43,606 nucleotides of DNA from Nanoarchaeota archaeon (lineage in GTDB: Archaea > EX4484-52 > LFW-46), in contig JAHILE010000059.1 of the NCBI GenBank assembly GCA_018897155.1, positions 1 through 43,606 on the forward strand, written 5' to 3'. Below, piece by piece: positions 75-38,550 of this stretch (position 1 is the stretch's first letter; every line of letters starts with the position of its first letter). The position numbers and the translations under genes were made by a program. The notes beneath the pieces are model-generated. The model saw only the letters and a program-made list of their open reading frames with translations, was not told the origin of the DNA and did not search any database.

Positions 75-1112
75 TTATGTGGTTAATTGCGCAAGAGGTT
101 TATTATTAATTAATTTCAAAAGAGACCCTTTCTCATTCACCGAGATTCTATAAAAATCATTGTTTTGCTTGCCCATAATTGCTTTACTTTCCAAACGGAA
201 CTTTGTTCGTATTCCTAAAAAATTCAACCTATCAAAAATTTGCTTCAAAATATTCTTGTCGTAAGTCCCTAATCGGAATCTAGCTCGATTTTGGTAAACT
301 CCAAAATTGCCTTCGGCATCTGCATACCCGCCCAAAAATGCAAAAAAGCAGTTAGTGTCATTCAAAATCCATTCTTCAATATGATCTTGTTTAGGTAATA
401 AAAAGGAAAATGACTTATCCAAGTTACAGTAATTTTGATAAACGCCATTCTTATAGTCAATCTTGTAATGACCGTGCACACCATAAATATTTTTAATAAG
501 TTCACATTGCTCTTTCTTTGTTGTACCTGATTTGATGAATATTGTCGAATTATCATTTACCGCTCTAACATTTAAATCACCCAATCGAAAGCCAATCATA
601 TACGCCTTTACTTCATCAGTTCCTTGAAATTTCTTTTTTGGATAACTGATATGCGACTCTGATAAAGATCTTGTTTTAATCCCAAATTTTTTCAAAAAGT
701 TAAAAATAGTGACTGGATCACAATCAAATTTCTTAGCGATTTTGGAGCAGGGCAGATTTTTTTCAACATATAATTTTGACAGCTCATGCTTATCAATTAT
801 TATTTTCTTTTTAGGCCGCGTATCTATGCCCACGTCCTTTAATTTATAATAAACACTACAAGAACTAATTCCCAGAATTTCGGCAGTCTTTTGAGCAGAT
901 AATTGTCGGTTAATATACAACTCTTCCAATTTCGATTTCGGAATTGTAATTTTCTCTTTTGGCTTCCTTAAAAGGATACCATATTCCTTTAATCTTCTTT
1001 TTATAACGCCTGAATCACAATTAAATATTTTTGCAATCCTATGTGTAGAGTACATTTTCTTCAAATACAAAGGTTCTAGAATATTTTTAGAAATATTGAT
1101 TTTTTTAGTCAT
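75..1112 (-). CDS. Free-standing LAGLIDADG endonuclease-like protein with three N-terminal HTH repeats
   Basis: A 345-residue protein. The C-terminal half carries two LAGLIDADG-type helices: AYMIGFRLGDLNV near residue 170 and FLGGYADAEGNF near residue 260. Each ends in the acidic residue expected of the active site, so a single chain could form the two-fold homing-endonuclease fold. The N-terminal half holds three copies of a roughly 45-residue unit (about residues 10-52, 60-102, 108-151), each with an L..LY...... IAK/AEIL..... V...L...GI pattern typical of resolvase-like helix-turn-helix units. A TATA-like TTTAAATA about 25 bases before the ATG suggests a leaderless transcript. No intron or intein is visible around it. 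DNA cleavage is inferred from the family; the protein could instead be a WhiA-like regulator that has lost cleavage. Confidence 0.8.
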   Translation of the reverse strand: MTKKINISKNILEPLYLKKMYSTHRIAKIFNCDSGVIKRRLKEYGILLRKPKEKITIPKSKLEELYINRQLSAQKTAEILGISSCSVYYKLKDVGIDTRPKKKIIIDKHELSKLYVEKNLPCSKIAKKFDCDPVTIFNFLKKFGIKTRSLSESHISYPKKKFQGTDEVKAYMIGFRLGDLNVRAVNDNSTIFIKSGTTKKEQCELIKNIYGVHGHYKIDYKNGVYQNYCNLDKSFSFLLPKQDHIEEWILNDTNCFFAFLGGYADAEGNFGVYQNRARFRLGTYDKNILKQIFDRLNFLGIRTKFRLESKAIMGKQNNDFYRISVNEKGSLLKLINNKPLAQLTT

Positions 1113-2121: not shown

Positions 2122-2154
2122 AGAATATATTAAACCGGAAAGCTAATATATTGT

Positions 2155-2919
2155 ATGAAACGCAGAAAGTCATCTCGTTCCGCTATTGCTTCACTCGAAG
2201 CTTTTGAGGGTTCCCTAACCTCAAAATCATCTCGTTCCGCTATTGCTTCACTCGAAGCTTTTGAGGGTTCCCTAACCTCAAAATCATCTCGTTCCGTTTC
2301 GCTGCACTCGAAGCTTTTTTTCGGGCGCCGAAAAAAAGCGCAATGGTTTATTGTCGGTGCATTCCTGATTATAACCATGATCTCTGCGGTTATAATGGGA
2401 AAAAATGCAGTAAACTTAAGCGATGATTTAGACCCGCTACAAAGGCAAATATACAAAAACATAAAGGCGGACATAGACATTGCGCTCAATTCTGTATTAT
2501 ATGAAGAAAGGACTTCGGAAAACCTCCAAATGCGGCTGAAAGACTATTCAAATTTCATACGCGATTTTGGGAAAATACATACAATAAATATATCTACCTA
2601 TTTGATTGTCGGCCTTCCTTCCGGAAACGACATTAATGTAACGGTTATCAATTTCCAAAAAACTGCAATGCAGCCAATAGAAATAACAATAAACGGAACG
2701 ACAAAAAATATTTCGATGCTTCTAGACGGCACTGCAGAAACGGTTACATTCACATCCGTTCCGGATTATTTCACAGTAAGCTACACAATTGCAACGCCGG
2801 GCGAATCACTGCCTGAAAGCGAATCGATAAACATGACAAAAAGAGTATTTTCTGCGGTAAAATTGCGCGTGGAGTCCAGAGACAAAAGCCAAGTGTGGCA
2901 GAAAGTCGGATGGTCTTAG
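2155..2919 (+). CDS. Type IV pilin-like surface protein with repeat-bearing leader
   Basis: A 254-residue protein. Around residue 60 the sequence GRRKKAQWFIVGAFLIITM shows a class III signal peptide: basic stretch, A/Q cleavage site, then a hydrophobic helix, as in archaeal type IV pilins processed by a prepilin peptidase (PibD/EppA). The remainder is a beta-rich exported domain with several N-x-S/T sites. The leader is unusually long (about 60 residues) because a 57-bp unit is tandemly repeated in frame within it. A TATA element at 2125-2132 places the transcript start at about 2155, so the ATG at 2155 is probably leaderless and the repeats are translated. Its stop overlaps the convergent Sua5 gene by four bases. 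The pilus or surface role is inferred from the signal peptide alone. Confidence 0.7.
   Translation: MKRRKSSRSAIASLEAFEGSLTSKSSRSAIASLEAFEGSLTSKSSRSVSLHSKLFFGRRKKAQWFIVGAFLIITMISAVIMGKNAVNLSDDLDPLQRQIYKNIKADIDIALNSVLYEERTSENLQMRLKDYSNFIRDFGKIHTINISTYLIVGLPSGNDINVTVINFQKTAMQPIEITINGTTKNISMLLDGTAETVTFTSVPDYFTVSYTIATPGESLPESESINMTKRVFSAVKLRVESRDKSQVWQKVGWS
2170..2315 (+). repeat. 57-bp tandem repeat, two full units and part of a third
   Basis: Units 2170-2226 and 2227-2283 are identical; a third begins at 2284 and diverges after about 13 bases, becoming similar again at CACTCGAAGCTTTT. Each unit holds a stem-loop (arms TTTTGAGG and CCTCAAAA). Because 57 is a multiple of three the copies stay in frame and encode repeated SSRSAIASLEAFEGSLTSK peptides. 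The pieces CGAAGCTTTT and CCTCAAAATCATC also occur in the hairpin array at 15812-15881, so this looks like a dispersed repeat rather than a protein-level repeat. Confidence 0.9.
2313..2339 (+). repeat. Perfect 12-bp stem-loop inside the pilin leader
   Basis: Arms 2313-2324 and 2328-2339 are perfectly complementary around a GCG loop. The stem lies in the coding sequence and encodes the basic residues that precede the signal-peptide cleavage site. In a leaderless mRNA it would sit about 160 bases from the 5' end. Confidence 0.75.
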
Positions 2920-3601: not shown

Positions 3602-3740
3602 GGTGCTGTTGCATAAGATTTATATATGCCAAAATTCTTGCTCAAATCTTAGCGTTGAACGCAAGAATTTTGAATGACTCGGTTTTAGCTTTGCAGATAA
3701 CGCTAAGGTGTATGTGCTCTGCGAATTGTGCAACAGCACC
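3602..3740. mobile_element. 139-bp MITE with IS6-like terminal inverted repeats
   Basis: The ends are GGTGCTGTTGCA and its exact reverse complement. This resembles IS6-family ends such as the GGCACTGTTGCA of IS26. Nine identical bases flank it directly. Two nested inverted repeats lie inside: 12 bp at 3630-3641 with 3661-3672, and 9 bp (CTTAGCGTT) at 3648-3656 with 3699-3707. There is no transposase, so it would move only with enzyme supplied in trans. It lies 54 bp upstream of the start of the NAD(P)-binding protein and also contains a TATA-like TTTATATA, so it may supply or displace a promoter. The IS6 assignment is from remembered end sequences. Confidence 0.85.
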
Positions 3741-11420: not shown

Positions 11421-11460
11421 TTTTAATCATTCCCCACAATCATTGGATTAAAATCCATTC

Positions 11461-11529
11461 GCAAGTTTTGCTTGCTCTTGGCTTTTGAGCTTTGCTCAAA
11501 AAGCTTGAAAATTCCATCGAATTTTCAAG
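11461..11529. repeat. Array of three stem-loops between topoisomerase VI genes
   Basis: Three hairpins follow one another: GCAAG/CTTGC (11461-11475), CTTTTGAGC with GCTCAAAAAG (11482-11503, one bulged A) and a perfect 11-bp stem with a CATC loop (11504-11529). They fill the gap between top6B and top6A. The pattern resembles the array at 15812-15881. They may set the relative expression of the two subunits or act as processing sites. Confidence 0.7.
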
Positions 11530-15264: not shown

Positions 15265-15789
15265 CTATTTTGCAATCTCAACCCTGCATCGCATCGGCAT
15301 CTTGTCGCAGACTCTTTTTCCTGCTTGTTTTGCTGTTTCAATGCCACTTGCATTCACTTCAATAACCATTATCCTGTGAGATTTTCTGATTCTTGCAGCA
15401 GAACCTGAAGGCTTTCCAAAAGCATGCGCCATTCCCTGATAGAATCGGTCTGCTTGAGCAATAGCTGCCTGCGCATGCTCTCTTAAAACCTGATGCGGAT
15501 AAACAAGAACTTTCATGAAAAAATTTTTATCGTCAAGCTTTTTTCTAAGAAGCGAGTTTGCGGAAATGCGGCCGGATTCCAAAGAATTGTGCCTTACTTG
15601 CGCGTTTTCGCAGGAAATGATATAAATTTTTTTCTCAAATTTGCCTTTCATTGCAGCATTTCCCATCTCAAAAGTATGAAGCTTTGAACCAGGAACTCCT
15701 TTGATGTATGCTTTTCTATGAACCTTTACTGCCGTGCGCGTGTAAGGCCTTTTAAATTCCCGGTATATTCGTGCTCTTCGCAATGCCAT
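15265..15789 (-). CDS. rpl10e: 50S ribosomal protein L10e (uL16)
   Basis: A 174-residue protein matching the archaeal L10e (uL16) family: RRARIYREFKRPYTR, PGSKLHTFEMGN, RHNSLESGRISAN, MKVLVYPHQVLREH, RFYQGMAHAFGKP and GSAARIRKSHRIM. It occupies the A-site finger region and is needed for late 50S assembly. The start is ATG 15789, preceded by GTGAGATGA. It leads a ribosomal-transcription operon with eL43 and rpoP, downstream of a stem-loop array. Confidence 0.95.
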   Translation of the reverse strand: MALRRARIYREFKRPYTRTAVKVHRKAYIKGVPGSKLHTFEMGNAAMKGKFEKKIYIISCENAQVRHNSLESGRISANSLLRKKLDDKNFFMKVLVYPHQVLREHAQAAIAQADRFYQGMAHAFGKPSGSAARIRKSHRIMVIEVNASGIETAKQAGKRVCDKMPMRCRVEIAK

Positions 15790-15811
15790 AAAAATCATCT
15801 CACTTAGTTCG

Positions 15812-15881
15812 AAGCTTTTTCGAGCTTGTCTCGAAAAGCTTGCCGCAAGGCATGATTTGAGGACTTCGTCCTCAAAATCAT
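15812..15881. repeat. Array of three stem-loops between Nudix and L10e genes
   Basis: Stem 1: AAGCTTTTTCGAG with CTCGAAAAGCTT (15812-15841). Stem 2: a short GCC/GGC hairpin (15842-15851). Stem 3: ATGATTTGAGGA with TCCTCAAAATCAT around a CTTCG loop (15852-15881). The array ends about 20 bases upstream of the L10e start on the minus strand. It shares CGAAGCTTTT and CCTCAAAATCATC with the repeat in the pilin leader (2170-2315). It may separate the Nudix transcript from the ribosomal operon or act as a leader structure. Confidence 0.75.
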
Positions 15882-24967: not shown

Positions 24968-26290
24968 TTATTTTATTCCGATTGCCGCAAAAGCGCTGCG
25001 CTTTATTTTGCCCTCATAATCCGATTTTGACTCGCCTGCGTTTTCTGCGCGAAGCAAAACGAGAAGCGCTGCTGAGAGCTTCTTGCCATCATCTTTTGAC
25101 AGCGCAGGATTTTTCAGCGCCGCCTTTTTTTCAAAAAGGCCCAAAGACTCCTCGAAAACTTTTTCCTCTATTTCATGCTTGTCTTCGCCCTTAATTTTCA
25201 GCTGCTGGGTTTCGCGCGAAGAAAGCGAATTGTGGCTAAGATACGCCACATTTGCGCCGTTTTTCAAAATCATGCTTTTCAGCTCGCCGAAATTTATGTC
25301 TGATGGCTTTCCGCTTGAAAGCTCGCCATGGATTTTGAGAAGAACTACAGACGGCATCGCGCCTCCTGAAAAATCATTTTTCTCAATCATCTGCTTCAGT
25401 TCATCGCCTGCGGATTGAGATGTTTTTGCATCCGCACCATAAATCAGAGAAAAAATCCTGCAGACCTCAATTGGCTCAAAACGCGCGACTGCTTTTTTCG
25501 ACGAATCTATTTCAACAAAATAAAACCCGCCTTTTTCATTTGATGCATTTTGAGGATTTGCGGAGCCCTCAAAAGCTTGCCACGAAGTGGCATGATTTTC
25601 CAGATCGCGGTAATCGCCCCCGAAAAGCGCGCCCGTAAAGACGAATTTTCCGTATTCCGGAAAGTCGCGCTCCATGCGCTTGTGCACATGCCCCCCTGCG
25701 TAATAATTGAAATTTTTCGGGAAATTCGACAGCGGAATTCCGTCTGACATCGCAAGAAAATCAGGCTTCATCTCATTCAGCGTGCTGTGAAAAAGAAATA
25801 TTTTGACGTTGCCGTTTTCGCTGTTTTCAAGATGCTCACAGTCAAGATTCTCGTAGTATGATTTCTCTGCGCCGCGCTTTCTTGCAGACATTCCGGAAAA
25901 TTTGACGCCGGTTTTTTCATCTGTAAAAAAGTCAAGCCGTATTTTTCCGCCTTCAGTTATGTTTGCGCTAACGACTTTTTTTATAAGCCCTGCGCTGCCA
26001 AGAACATCAATAATCGAGGTTTCTGTTGCGCTGTAGTCGTGCGAGCCGTAGACAACATAAATCGGAATTCCTGCGTCTTTTAGCTGTTTCATTTTTCGCA
26101 CCGCCCGGTCAACAACAGCCATGTCGGGAAGCGCGATTTCAAACAAATCGCCTGCAATAAGTATGAAATCCGATTTCAATTCAATTGCTCGGTCAATCGC
26201 TTTCTCAAACGCTAAGACGTTTAATTCGCGCAGTGTCGGGTCCCTAAATGCTCCCAAATGAACGTCTGCGATGTGCGCGAATTTTACCAT
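24968..26290 (-). CDS. mre11: DNA double-strand break repair nuclease Mre11
   Basis: A 440-residue calcineurin-like nuclease. Metal-binding motifs appear in order: HIADVHLGAF (D9, H11), ILIAGDLFEIA, VVYGSHDYSATE, FLFHSTLNE and YYAGGHVHKRM. Motif III reads GSHD where most Mre11 proteins have GNHD, so the usual metal-bridging asparagine is a serine. The C-terminal about 150 residues should form the capping and Rad50-binding regions. It acts as exo- and endonuclease at DNA ends with Rad50, then hands over to HerA-NurA. Confidence 0.95.
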   Translation of the reverse strand: MVKFAHIADVHLGAFRDPTLRELNVLAFEKAIDRAIELKSDFILIAGDLFEIALPDMAVVDRAVRKMKQLKDAGIPIYVVYGSHDYSATETSIIDVLGSAGLIKKVVSANITEGGKIRLDFFTDEKTGVKFSGMSARKRGAEKSYYENLDCEHLENSENGNVKIFLFHSTLNEMKPDFLAMSDGIPLSNFPKNFNYYAGGHVHKRMERDFPEYGKFVFTGALFGGDYRDLENHATSWQAFEGSANPQNASNEKGGFYFVEIDSSKKAVARFEPIEVCRIFSLIYGADAKTSQSAGDELKQMIEKNDFSGGAMPSVVLLKIHGELSSGKPSDINFGELKSMILKNGANVAYLSHNSLSSRETQQLKIKGEDKHEIEEKVFEESLGLFEKKAALKNPALSKDDGKKLSAALLVLLRAENAGESKSDYEGKIKRSAFAAIGIK

Positions 26291-36840: not shown

Positions 36841-38550
36841 TCACTTGTGTGTATAATATAGCAAAACATATATATTAGCTTTAGATTTGTCGATAGTATC
36901 GATGCGCGCAAATCCAAAGCGCTCCAATTGAATCACTGTGCCAACTTTTTCAGAAAGTATGTTTTTTTCAATAAATCCTTTTTTTGCAGTCCCGTCAGGC
37001 ATCTTTATCTCTGCATTAATTGCCTGCGCATCATCTGCAGGAAGCCAGTGTATAAAACGCCGGTTCGCAGTTTCAAGCAGCTTTATTTTTTTTCCATCGA
37101 TTCTTGCAGGAAGCATTGCGCCCATCAGCATAAAATCATCTCCCACCACATCGTTTTTTGAGAGATATATTTCGCGCGACATCCGCAGTATGCGATCGCC
37201 CATTTCAGGGTGCTGGGGATGTTTCCTGATTTTAACTTCCCGCTCAATATGTGCGTCAAATGCCAATTTTTGCGGATTTTCAACAAAAAAGTATCTTCCT
37301 GCTGTTGAATCAACCATCTTGCGGTTGATGCTTTCAAGAATATTCATGTCAAATGTGGTTTCGCTTTCTGAAATACCGAGCGCAAGCACATATTCACGTA
37401 TTGCGAGAGGCTGAATTCCGCGCCGCCGGAAAGCCAGTATTGTGGCAAGCTGAGGGTCGTCAAATCCGGTGTATTTTCCCTCTCGCATGCCTTCATTTAT
37501 TTTCGTCTTTGAAACAACAGTATCTTGGGTTGTGACAAATTTTCCATATATGCGCGTTTCGGGGTATTTCCAGCAAAAATGCGCATATAATTCTCTTTGG
37601 CGCAGCTCTGACACAGCAAGGTCTTTTCCGCGCACAATATGCGTTATCTTGAATTCATAATCGTCAATTGCCGAGGCAAAATCAAGCATTGGCCAGACTT
37701 TCACGGATTTGTCTGTTAGTGGATGCTCGGGCTCATCGATTATGCGGAATGCCACCCAGTCAATAACTGCCGGATTCTTTTCAGAGAGAGATGTCTTTAT
37801 TCGGGCAACTGCGCCACCCTGCTTATATTTCCACTCAAGCATCATATTCCATCGCTTTTGGTTCTCTGCAATTGAAATGCTTCTGCACGGGCACTGCTTT
37901 CTTTTAACTCGCGCAGTTTCGCTCCATTCATCCTGCTTGCAGGTGCAGATATACGCGCCGTTTTTTTCAAACAATTGTTCGAAATAGTTATAGTATATTG
38001 GAATTCGGGCTGAAACGCGCTCTACACAACCGTATTTTATTCCAAGCCATTTCAAATCCTCTTCAATCCAGGCATATGCCTCTTTCATAGGCAGCTTGTT
38101 CTTGTTTTTCGGATCGCTGTCGTCAAATCGCAGAATAAGCGCGCCGCCATACATTTTCGAGTATTCGTCATTCAGTATTGCCATGCGAGAGTGACCTATA
38201 TGGAGCGGGCCGTTCGGATTCGGCGCCATGCGCATAACGACTTTTCCGCTAATAGCGCCAGCAAGCGGCGGAAGCGCTTTTTTTTCTTCCTTTGCCTTTT
38301 TTTCGGGAACCGTTATTTTCAGTTTGGACAGCTCTGCATTCTGCGCGTCAATTGACATGGAACTTACTTCGAAGCATATTTTTTCGGCAAGCGCCGTTGT
38401 TTCGGGAATATTCTCCCTGGCAGATGGAATGCTTGCAAGAACCTTTCCTGCAACTGCTTTTGCATTCGCTTTCCCTCCAAACGAAACTGCGTTTAAGAGC
38501 GCGATTTTCCTAATCTCTAAAGAAATGCCACCCTGTTTTTTCTTCTGCAT
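36841..38550 (-). CDS. gltX: Glutamyl-tRNA synthetase, archaeal type
   Basis: About 569 residues. The class I catalytic core has the HIGH motif in MAPNPNGPLHIGHSRMAILN and a KMSKS-type loop as VVSKTKINEG, preceded by RIYGKFVTTQDT. CTCKQDEW and KQCPCRS lie in the zinc-binding-like insertion. The C-terminal beta-barrel half is of the GlnRS/archaeal GluRS type. Such enzymes usually charge both tRNA-Glu and tRNA-Gln with glutamate, with later amidation. The N-terminal about 95 residues form the helical extension found in archaeal enzymes. ATG 38550 was chosen; the ATG at 38556 is also possible. Confidence 0.95.
   Translation of the reverse strand: MQKKKQGGISLEIRKIALLNAVSFGGKANAKAVAGKVLASIPSARENIPETTALAEKICFEVSSMSIDAQNAELSKLKITVPEKKAKEEKKALPPLAGAISGKVVMRMAPNPNGPLHIGHSRMAILNDEYSKMYGGALILRFDDSDPKNKNKLPMKEAYAWIEEDLKWLGIKYGCVERVSARIPIYYNYFEQLFEKNGAYICTCKQDEWSETARVKRKQCPCRSISIAENQKRWNMMLEWKYKQGGAVARIKTSLSEKNPAVIDWVAFRIIDEPEHPLTDKSVKVWPMLDFASAIDDYEFKITHIVRGKDLAVSELRQRELYAHFCWKYPETRIYGKFVTTQDTVVSKTKINEGMREGKYTGFDDPQLATILAFRRRGIQPLAIREYVLALGISESETTFDMNILESINRKMVDSTAGRYFFVENPQKLAFDAHIEREVKIRKHPQHPEMGDRILRMSREIYLSKNDVVGDDFMLMGAMLPARIDGKKIKLLETANRRFIHWLPADDAQAINAEIKMPDGTAKKGFIEKNILSEKVGTVIQLERFGFARIDTIDKSKANIYVLLYYTHK

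Follow-up and report, generated by a model that had tools for sequence, protein, structure and literature searches.

What is the tandem hairpin repeat that occupies the leader of a pilin-like gene in a nanoarchaeal genome, and how does the gene accommodate it? The window under study is a stretch of 43,606 nucleotides, namely contig C59 of an archaeal genome of 1.43 Mb, designated here as G000. An open reading frame spans all of positions 2155-2919 on the forward strand and encodes a pilin-like protein of 254 amino acids, for which no Pfam family scored above the cut-off. The start codon and the native leader, MKRRK, extend from 2155 to 2169, and three repeat units follow on the same strand. 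Unit 1, delineated from 2170 to 2226 (57 nt), is composed of the box TCATCTC, a stem-loop, and the box TCGAAGC (2170-2201), and then the hairpin TTTTGAGG..CCTCAAAA (2202-2226). Unit 2 (2227-2283, 57 nt) has the same sequence. Unit 3 (2284-2337, 54 nt) carries the same boxes around a different inner stem, and its second hairpin is TTTTTTTCGG-GCG-CCGAAAAAAA. The sequence-only reading had described two identical units and a third, partial one; the identity of the two 57-mers stands, but the third unit is complete. Together the units add 57+57+54 = 168 nt, or 56 codons, in frame and free of stops, between MKRRK and AQWF, and the array received a Tandem Repeats Finder score of 271. The remainder of the protein (2338-2919) begins with AQWFIVGA after the basic residues, a motif that we take to resemble a class III signal, and continues into the mature part. 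By analogy with class III signals the leader is predicted to be removed by a prepilin peptidase.

Of 60 relatives searched, 21 encode an orthologue of the pilin-like protein; counting G000, this makes 22 of 61 genomes. The only genome from the same genus, G001, encodes an orthologue that starts MQRRKAQWFIIGG (MQRRKAQWF). As can be seen, nothing lies between the basic residues and AQW, such that the G001 leader lacks the 56 residues; the leaders of the two species thus hold three copies and none, respectively. From this empty site it follows that the element inserted after codon 5, in frame. A TATA-box-like sequence, AATATATTAAA, was spotted by eye at 2124-2134 (forward strand), ∼25 nt 5' of the ATG, and G001 shows GTATATTAAA at the matching place. 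Indeed, the G001 orthologue has its ATG at the equivalent position with the TATATTAAA box upstream, as in the gene of the window. Up to position 2400 the only in-frame ATG, GTG, or TTG codons are the ATGs at 2155, 2377, and 2395, and the latter two fall within the hydrophobic stretch, 3' of the cleavage motif. The earlier placement of the translational start upstream of the repeats is thereby upheld. Note that in another genome, G025, the pilin-like leader is ∼17 codons longer than that of G029 (L054 versus L055), with an in-frame stretch unlike the TCATCTC..TCGAAGC module. It seems that insertions have entered the leaders of this protein more than once.

When the boxes were used as a search pattern, TCATCTC(8-38)CGAAGC, 47 matches were obtained in G000 and none in a backwards control. 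These counts, together with the repeat-free leader of G001, agree with the proposal that the repeat is a dispersed element that entered the leader. A stricter pattern, TCATCTCR(5-24)YTCGAAGC, recovered 45 copies in G000 and 27 in G001. Within the order, 13 of 34 genomes contain it, G000 being one of them, and so does one of 27 other archaea, in a copy that lacks a paired stem; all of the genomes compared are draft bins. In a scan of named genomes the strict pattern yielded eight stretches, seven of which are from LFW-46. The eighth, an exact copy, is held by a 3-kb contig labelled bacterium (L127, JAJZWH010000073.1), possibly mis-binned DNA of the element's archaeal group. According to excerpts of the paper on LFW-46, this isolate belongs to GTDB p__EX4484-52, a DPANN lineage, and neither "repeat" nor "palindrom" occurs in the main text of that paper.

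A total of 86 copies were read with their flanks, and these represent 75 distinct cores. Each unit is built of a core hairpin, in which the boxes TCATCTC and TCGAAGC surround a variable stem, and a second hairpin whose feet are TTTT and AAAA. The constancy of the boxes follows from the search pattern itself. Covariation was seen at the base pair adjacent to the boxes, where G-C alternates with A-T, both among the long cores (38) and among the short ones (34) (p = 0.002 and <0.001 against shuffles), three of the 75 distinct cores having been omitted for length or an altered box. The next pair covaries as well and, in the long cores, so does the pair at position 13. A search of 12 loci against Rfam 15, with E values up to 1, revealed no curated RNA family beyond tRNA, the other matches being weak and below the gathering score; three tRNA matches were observed in L120, one of which extends into the element. 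Where frames cross it, the element is present in either orientation, and five of the six possible frames are used. Roughly one copy in two falls outside any long frame, and inspection by eye of the frames neighboring copies without a long spanning frame showed no clear pair of gene halves.

With the use of Pfam, frames passing through the element were identified in G000 for MetRS, PEP synthase, a methyltransferase, the UvrA tail, UvrC (two units), a glycosyltransferase, KsgA, an aminotransferase, RlmH, topoisomerase I, a ValRS-like synthetase, and the start of Cbf5. In G001 such frames encode GluRS, a PorA-like protein, and a 2'-5' RNA ligase-like protein, and in G007 a radical-SAM protein. 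GluRS provides one empty site. The G001 gene contains exactly 57 extra nucleotides, starting at TCATCTC, whereas the G000 gene, which lies in the window (36844-38547, reverse strand) and is 74% identical, is without them, as are the orthologues from G004, G007, G010, G029, and G031. In the case of KsgA it is the G000 protein that carries the insert (35 extra columns), and those of G001 (which shares 76% identity with it along most of its length) and G010 that lack it. Presence or absence of the element between orthologues is thus directly observed in both directions.

Alignments with known structures place the inserts opposite gaps. The GluRS insert corresponds to a 19-residue gap with respect to PDB 3aii, that of the aminotransferase to 17 residues (1gd9), and that of PEP synthase to 14 residues, or 42 nt, which is exactly the unit (2ols). 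Gaps of ∼19 and ∼17 residues are observed for the ValRS-like protein (1gax) and RlmH (1vh0), respectively. For the MetRS tail, 113 query residues match 95 in 1mkh, a difference of 18, and the KsgA alignment falls into two separate matches. The structures found for UvrC cover regions other than the element site. In a predicted model of G001 GluRS, based on seven sequences and with a mean pLDDT of 77, the values drop below 50 over residues 259-285, which include the insert. Such low values are to be expected for a flexible loop, but equally for any part of the model without alignment depth. The suggestion that the leader tolerates the repeat by virtue of being removed is therefore too narrow, since the element also occurs in the mature parts of GluRS, KsgA, MetRS, PEP synthase, and topoisomerase I. 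The element is tolerated in genes generally, provided that the frame is kept.

Frame keeping was assessed with unit lengths taken from the hairpins alone. All 17 units at 14 coding loci, which range from 42 to 66 nt, have lengths divisible by three and are free of stops. Elsewhere only 17 of 42 copies have lengths divisible by three (Fisher p = 8e-6), a contrast that is partly conditional, open frames having been among the grounds for calling a site coding. The same divisibility holds for eight of eight units in other long frames or N-terminal extensions. Seventeen of the 86 copies were dropped due to a weak second hairpin or a composite insert (including KsgA L045 and PorA L093 and L106), and the two tRNA copies described below were set aside. 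At the UvrA tail (L031) and Cbf5 (L082) homology is present on one side only; leaving both out, one has 12 loci at which 15 of 15 units are divisible by three. At four sites with composite in-frame inserts (L101, L121, L114, and L118), other repeat pieces, SSKHENGL and HETSVRP, adjoin the element, which suggests several dispersed coding repeats in the order.

Two copies reside in tRNA genes. In the tRNA-Ser(GGA) gene of G007 (contig C78; L122 1222-1269) a 48-nt unit interrupts the anticodon loop at 37/38, and its removal leaves an intact tRNA. In the tRNA-Ala(CGC) gene of G031 (contig C167; L120 866-919) the unit interrupts the T loop, and taking out its 54 nt is one of several lengths that allow ARAGORN to call the tRNA. 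Both genes were scanned for a bulge-helix-bulge (BHB) motif over 286 cut registers each, requiring a 4-bp central helix between two 3-nt bulges, each cut behind its second base, and an exon stem. One register remained per gene, and it coincides exactly with the unit ends. The central helix is CUGG/UCAG, with one G-U pair, and the cuts are AA|U and AA|A for tRNA-Ser(GGA), whereas the corresponding features for tRNA-Ala(CGC) are UUCG/CGAA, AA|U, and AA|C. Applied to seven ordinary tRNA introns, the rule gave the expected register in only two (Val and Thr), with one false register in addition for Thr and none in the other five, and is thus strict. Among the 86 copies, 21 pass with any nearby register, but just two, those in tRNA genes, pass at the exact-unit register; none of the other 84 copies, those in protein genes included, has a BHB there, and none was found on the reverse strand. 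The other tRNA introns of G007 and G031 are unrelated in sequence to the element. No second tRNA-Ser(GGA) in G007 or tRNA-Ala(CGC) in G031 was present among the tRNA genes whose anticodon was read, these genomes being incomplete and some matches unread. Genes of the EndA type occur in G000, G001, and G031; PF01974 was found in G031 and not in the draft G007. From its sequence, the element in these two tRNA genes looks like a removable intron.

The window contains further modules, as had been proposed from its sequence. An array at 15795-15877 (forward strand), which includes one TCATCTC..TCGAAGC module, plain hairpins, and one GCTTG..CATGA module, abuts the start of the L10e ribosomal protein gene (15265-15798, reverse strand). 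On the reverse strand a 48-nt unit with a related module (TCATG..CAAGC plus TTTTGAGG..CCTCAAAA) is positioned at 25548-25595, in frame within a gene for an Mre11-like nuclease (24968-26290, reverse strand), its boundary being drawn from the sequence pattern rather than from an empty site in a relative. A third module type, GCCNAGAG..GCGAANGGA, is located at 11451-11486 (reverse strand), in an array that no long frame covers. Beside the TCATCTC..TCGAAGC type, these two module types, which follow its plan AAAA-box-stem-box-TTTT, number 24 and 18 copies in G000 and none in the control. We infer that the TCATCTC..TCGAAGC type, taken as its reverse complement, has the foot AAAAGC-Y-T...A-K-GATTTT in common with these two. 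Their foot contains a G.A mismatch, and one of the types has C-G where the others have T.T. Other features of the window are recorded here. A 15-bp inverted repeat, GGTGCTGTTGCATAA / TTGTGCAACAGCACC, at 3602-3740 spans 139 bp between genes, and the sequence GCTGTTGCAC also adjoins a module in L016. Positions 75-1112 (reverse strand) encode a LAGLIDADG-like protein with helix-turn-helix repeats, beside a ThiI-like gene.

Several other explanations must be weighed against these data. If translation of the pilin-like gene began 3' of the repeats, or the gene were broken, the repeats would simply constitute a 5' UTR. A rare start codon could serve, and there is indeed a CTG in frame at 2302, but the lack of an ATG, GTG, or TTG between 2155 and 2377, the conservation of the ATG and TATA-like box in G001, and an insert of exactly 56 stop-free codons make this reading very improbable indeed. 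Alternatively, the ribosome might hop over the hairpins, as it does over the byps of Magnusiomyces mitochondria, one organelle system in which this is known (excerpts of PMC6649704); short hairpins scattered in coding genes would suit such a process. Hopping, however, needs neither a length divisible by three nor an absence of stops, and all 17 coding units display both, so that we regard it as extremely unlikely. The element could also be an RNA-level intron everywhere, of the BHB type or another, cut from mRNAs as well as from tRNAs. The exact fit of the two tRNA copies and the EndA-type genes speak for such a role. The confinement of that fit to two of 86 copies, the divisibility by three that an excised intron would not need, and the several copies that lie antisense to their gene (L031, L048, L074, and L082) speak against it, and we judge it to be very unlikely. 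BHB splicing of the protein-gene copies in particular was rejected, given that no BHB is found in the exact-unit register.

A different possibility is that the hairpins are regulatory or structural RNA or DNA elements of the host, such as terminators or REP-like chromosome sites, and that the copies in genes are there for that function. The share of copies outside long frames and the resemblance of the arrays to REP clusters would agree with this. What disagrees is that the element interrupts enzymes midway as well as tRNAs, is held by one orthologue and not by another, and occurs in both orientations, and the explanation is unlikely. The least credible of the readings considered is that the tandem copies are artefacts of assembly. 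The assembly is a draft of the metagenome type, and at the Cbf5 fragment (L082; contig C51 of G000) the contig ends inside a tandem array of the element, which indicates that assembly probably breaks at such arrays. Nevertheless, the sequence of the third leader unit is different, the single copies at other sites leave no ambiguity, and the element recurs in independent genomes. The count of three in the leader array is that of the assembled sequence and may not be exact.

The explanation that we favor is that the 57-, 57-, and 54-nt units are very probably copies of a palindromic DNA element dispersed in this archaeal order, one that is mobile and that survives in genes because it is translated or, in the case of tRNAs, spliced out. 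The element would insert after A-rich sequence in either orientation. Copies in protein genes would persist only when the unit amounts to whole codons without a stop, and would then be translated as a tolerated loop or leader extension. In the pilin-like gene it would have entered after codon 5, followed by tandem copying, and the 56 extra residues, being N-terminal to the prepilin-peptidase cleavage motif, would be removed with the leader. In tRNA genes only those copies that complete a BHB site would survive, and they would do so because the splicing endonuclease can remove them.

As for the means of mobility, no mobilizing enzyme could be tied to the element, the class searched being the Y1 transposases. 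G000 contains three such genes and G001 a single one; the search turned up none in the element carriers G007, G031, and G025. An IS200/Y1 transposase was considered as the carrier of the element's ends but found no support, as no modules are present at the ends of the G000 and G001 Y1 genes. One ordinary copy of the element, on L138 at 2796, lies ∼950 bases from a Y1 transposase. A target-site duplication was considered and dropped; in most copies the downstream arm matches the upstream flank only by a run of A. At the GluRS empty site the shared sequence is AA only, and the element ends are TCATCTC and AAAA.

The broader proposition is that a mobile hairpin element is tolerated in two ways within one archaeal lineage, as an in-frame peptide in proteins and as a ready-made BHB intron in tRNAs. 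We put this forward tentatively, its chances being a little short of even. If true, archaeal tRNA introns and new protein loops would still be arising today through insertion of the element. Splicing of the tRNA copies, if it occurs, would mean that a dispersed element has been caught in making BHB introns, which bears directly on the origin of archaeal tRNA introns. The copies in GluRS, KsgA, MetRS, PEP synthase, and topoisomerase I amount to natural insertion scans of conserved enzymes. They also carry a warning for annotation in that odd inserts of 14-56 residues in these archaea may be derived from the element.

In-frame palindromic elements are best known from Rickettsia, where the Rickettsia palindromic elements (RPE) were reportedly described by Ogata et al. 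in 2000 and 2002. No printed report of such elements in Archaea was found in the open-licence literature searched. As described in excerpts of the review PMC10969869, the RPE are ∼150 bp in length, dispersed, located in frame within unrelated protein genes, and predicted to be translated. The archaeal element is similarly a dispersed palindrome that is in frame in unrelated protein genes. It differs from the RPE of those excerpts in its units of 42-66 nt and in its host, a DPANN archaeon, and, unlike the RPE as described there, it also shows tandem copies and tRNA copies that fit a BHB. By analogy, then, the element would work like an RPE, which is not to say that it belongs to the RPE family.

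Among other hairpins in coding sequence, the byps of Magnusiomyces mitochondria lie within genes and are bypassed by the ribosome, according to excerpts of PMC6649704, whereas the lengths of the archaeal element keep the frame. The same excerpts describe perfect coding palindromes of up to 284 bp in nematomorph mitochondria. These, too, are hairpins inside coding sequence, but as described they are long and do not constitute one dispersed unit with conserved boxes. With MITEs and REP sequences, which are associated with RAYT or IS200-like transposases, the element has in common that it is a small, non-autonomous hairpin with many copies and intergenic arrays; it differs in that no terminal inverted repeats, no clear target duplication, and, within the Y1 class searched, no transposase with matching ends were seen. 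The likeness to archaeal BHB introns is confined to the two tRNA copies, in which the 4-bp helix, the two 3-nt bulges, and the outer stem are positioned at the unit ends. It does not extend to the copies in protein genes, which are without a BHB, and the ordinary tRNA introns are unrelated to the element in sequence.
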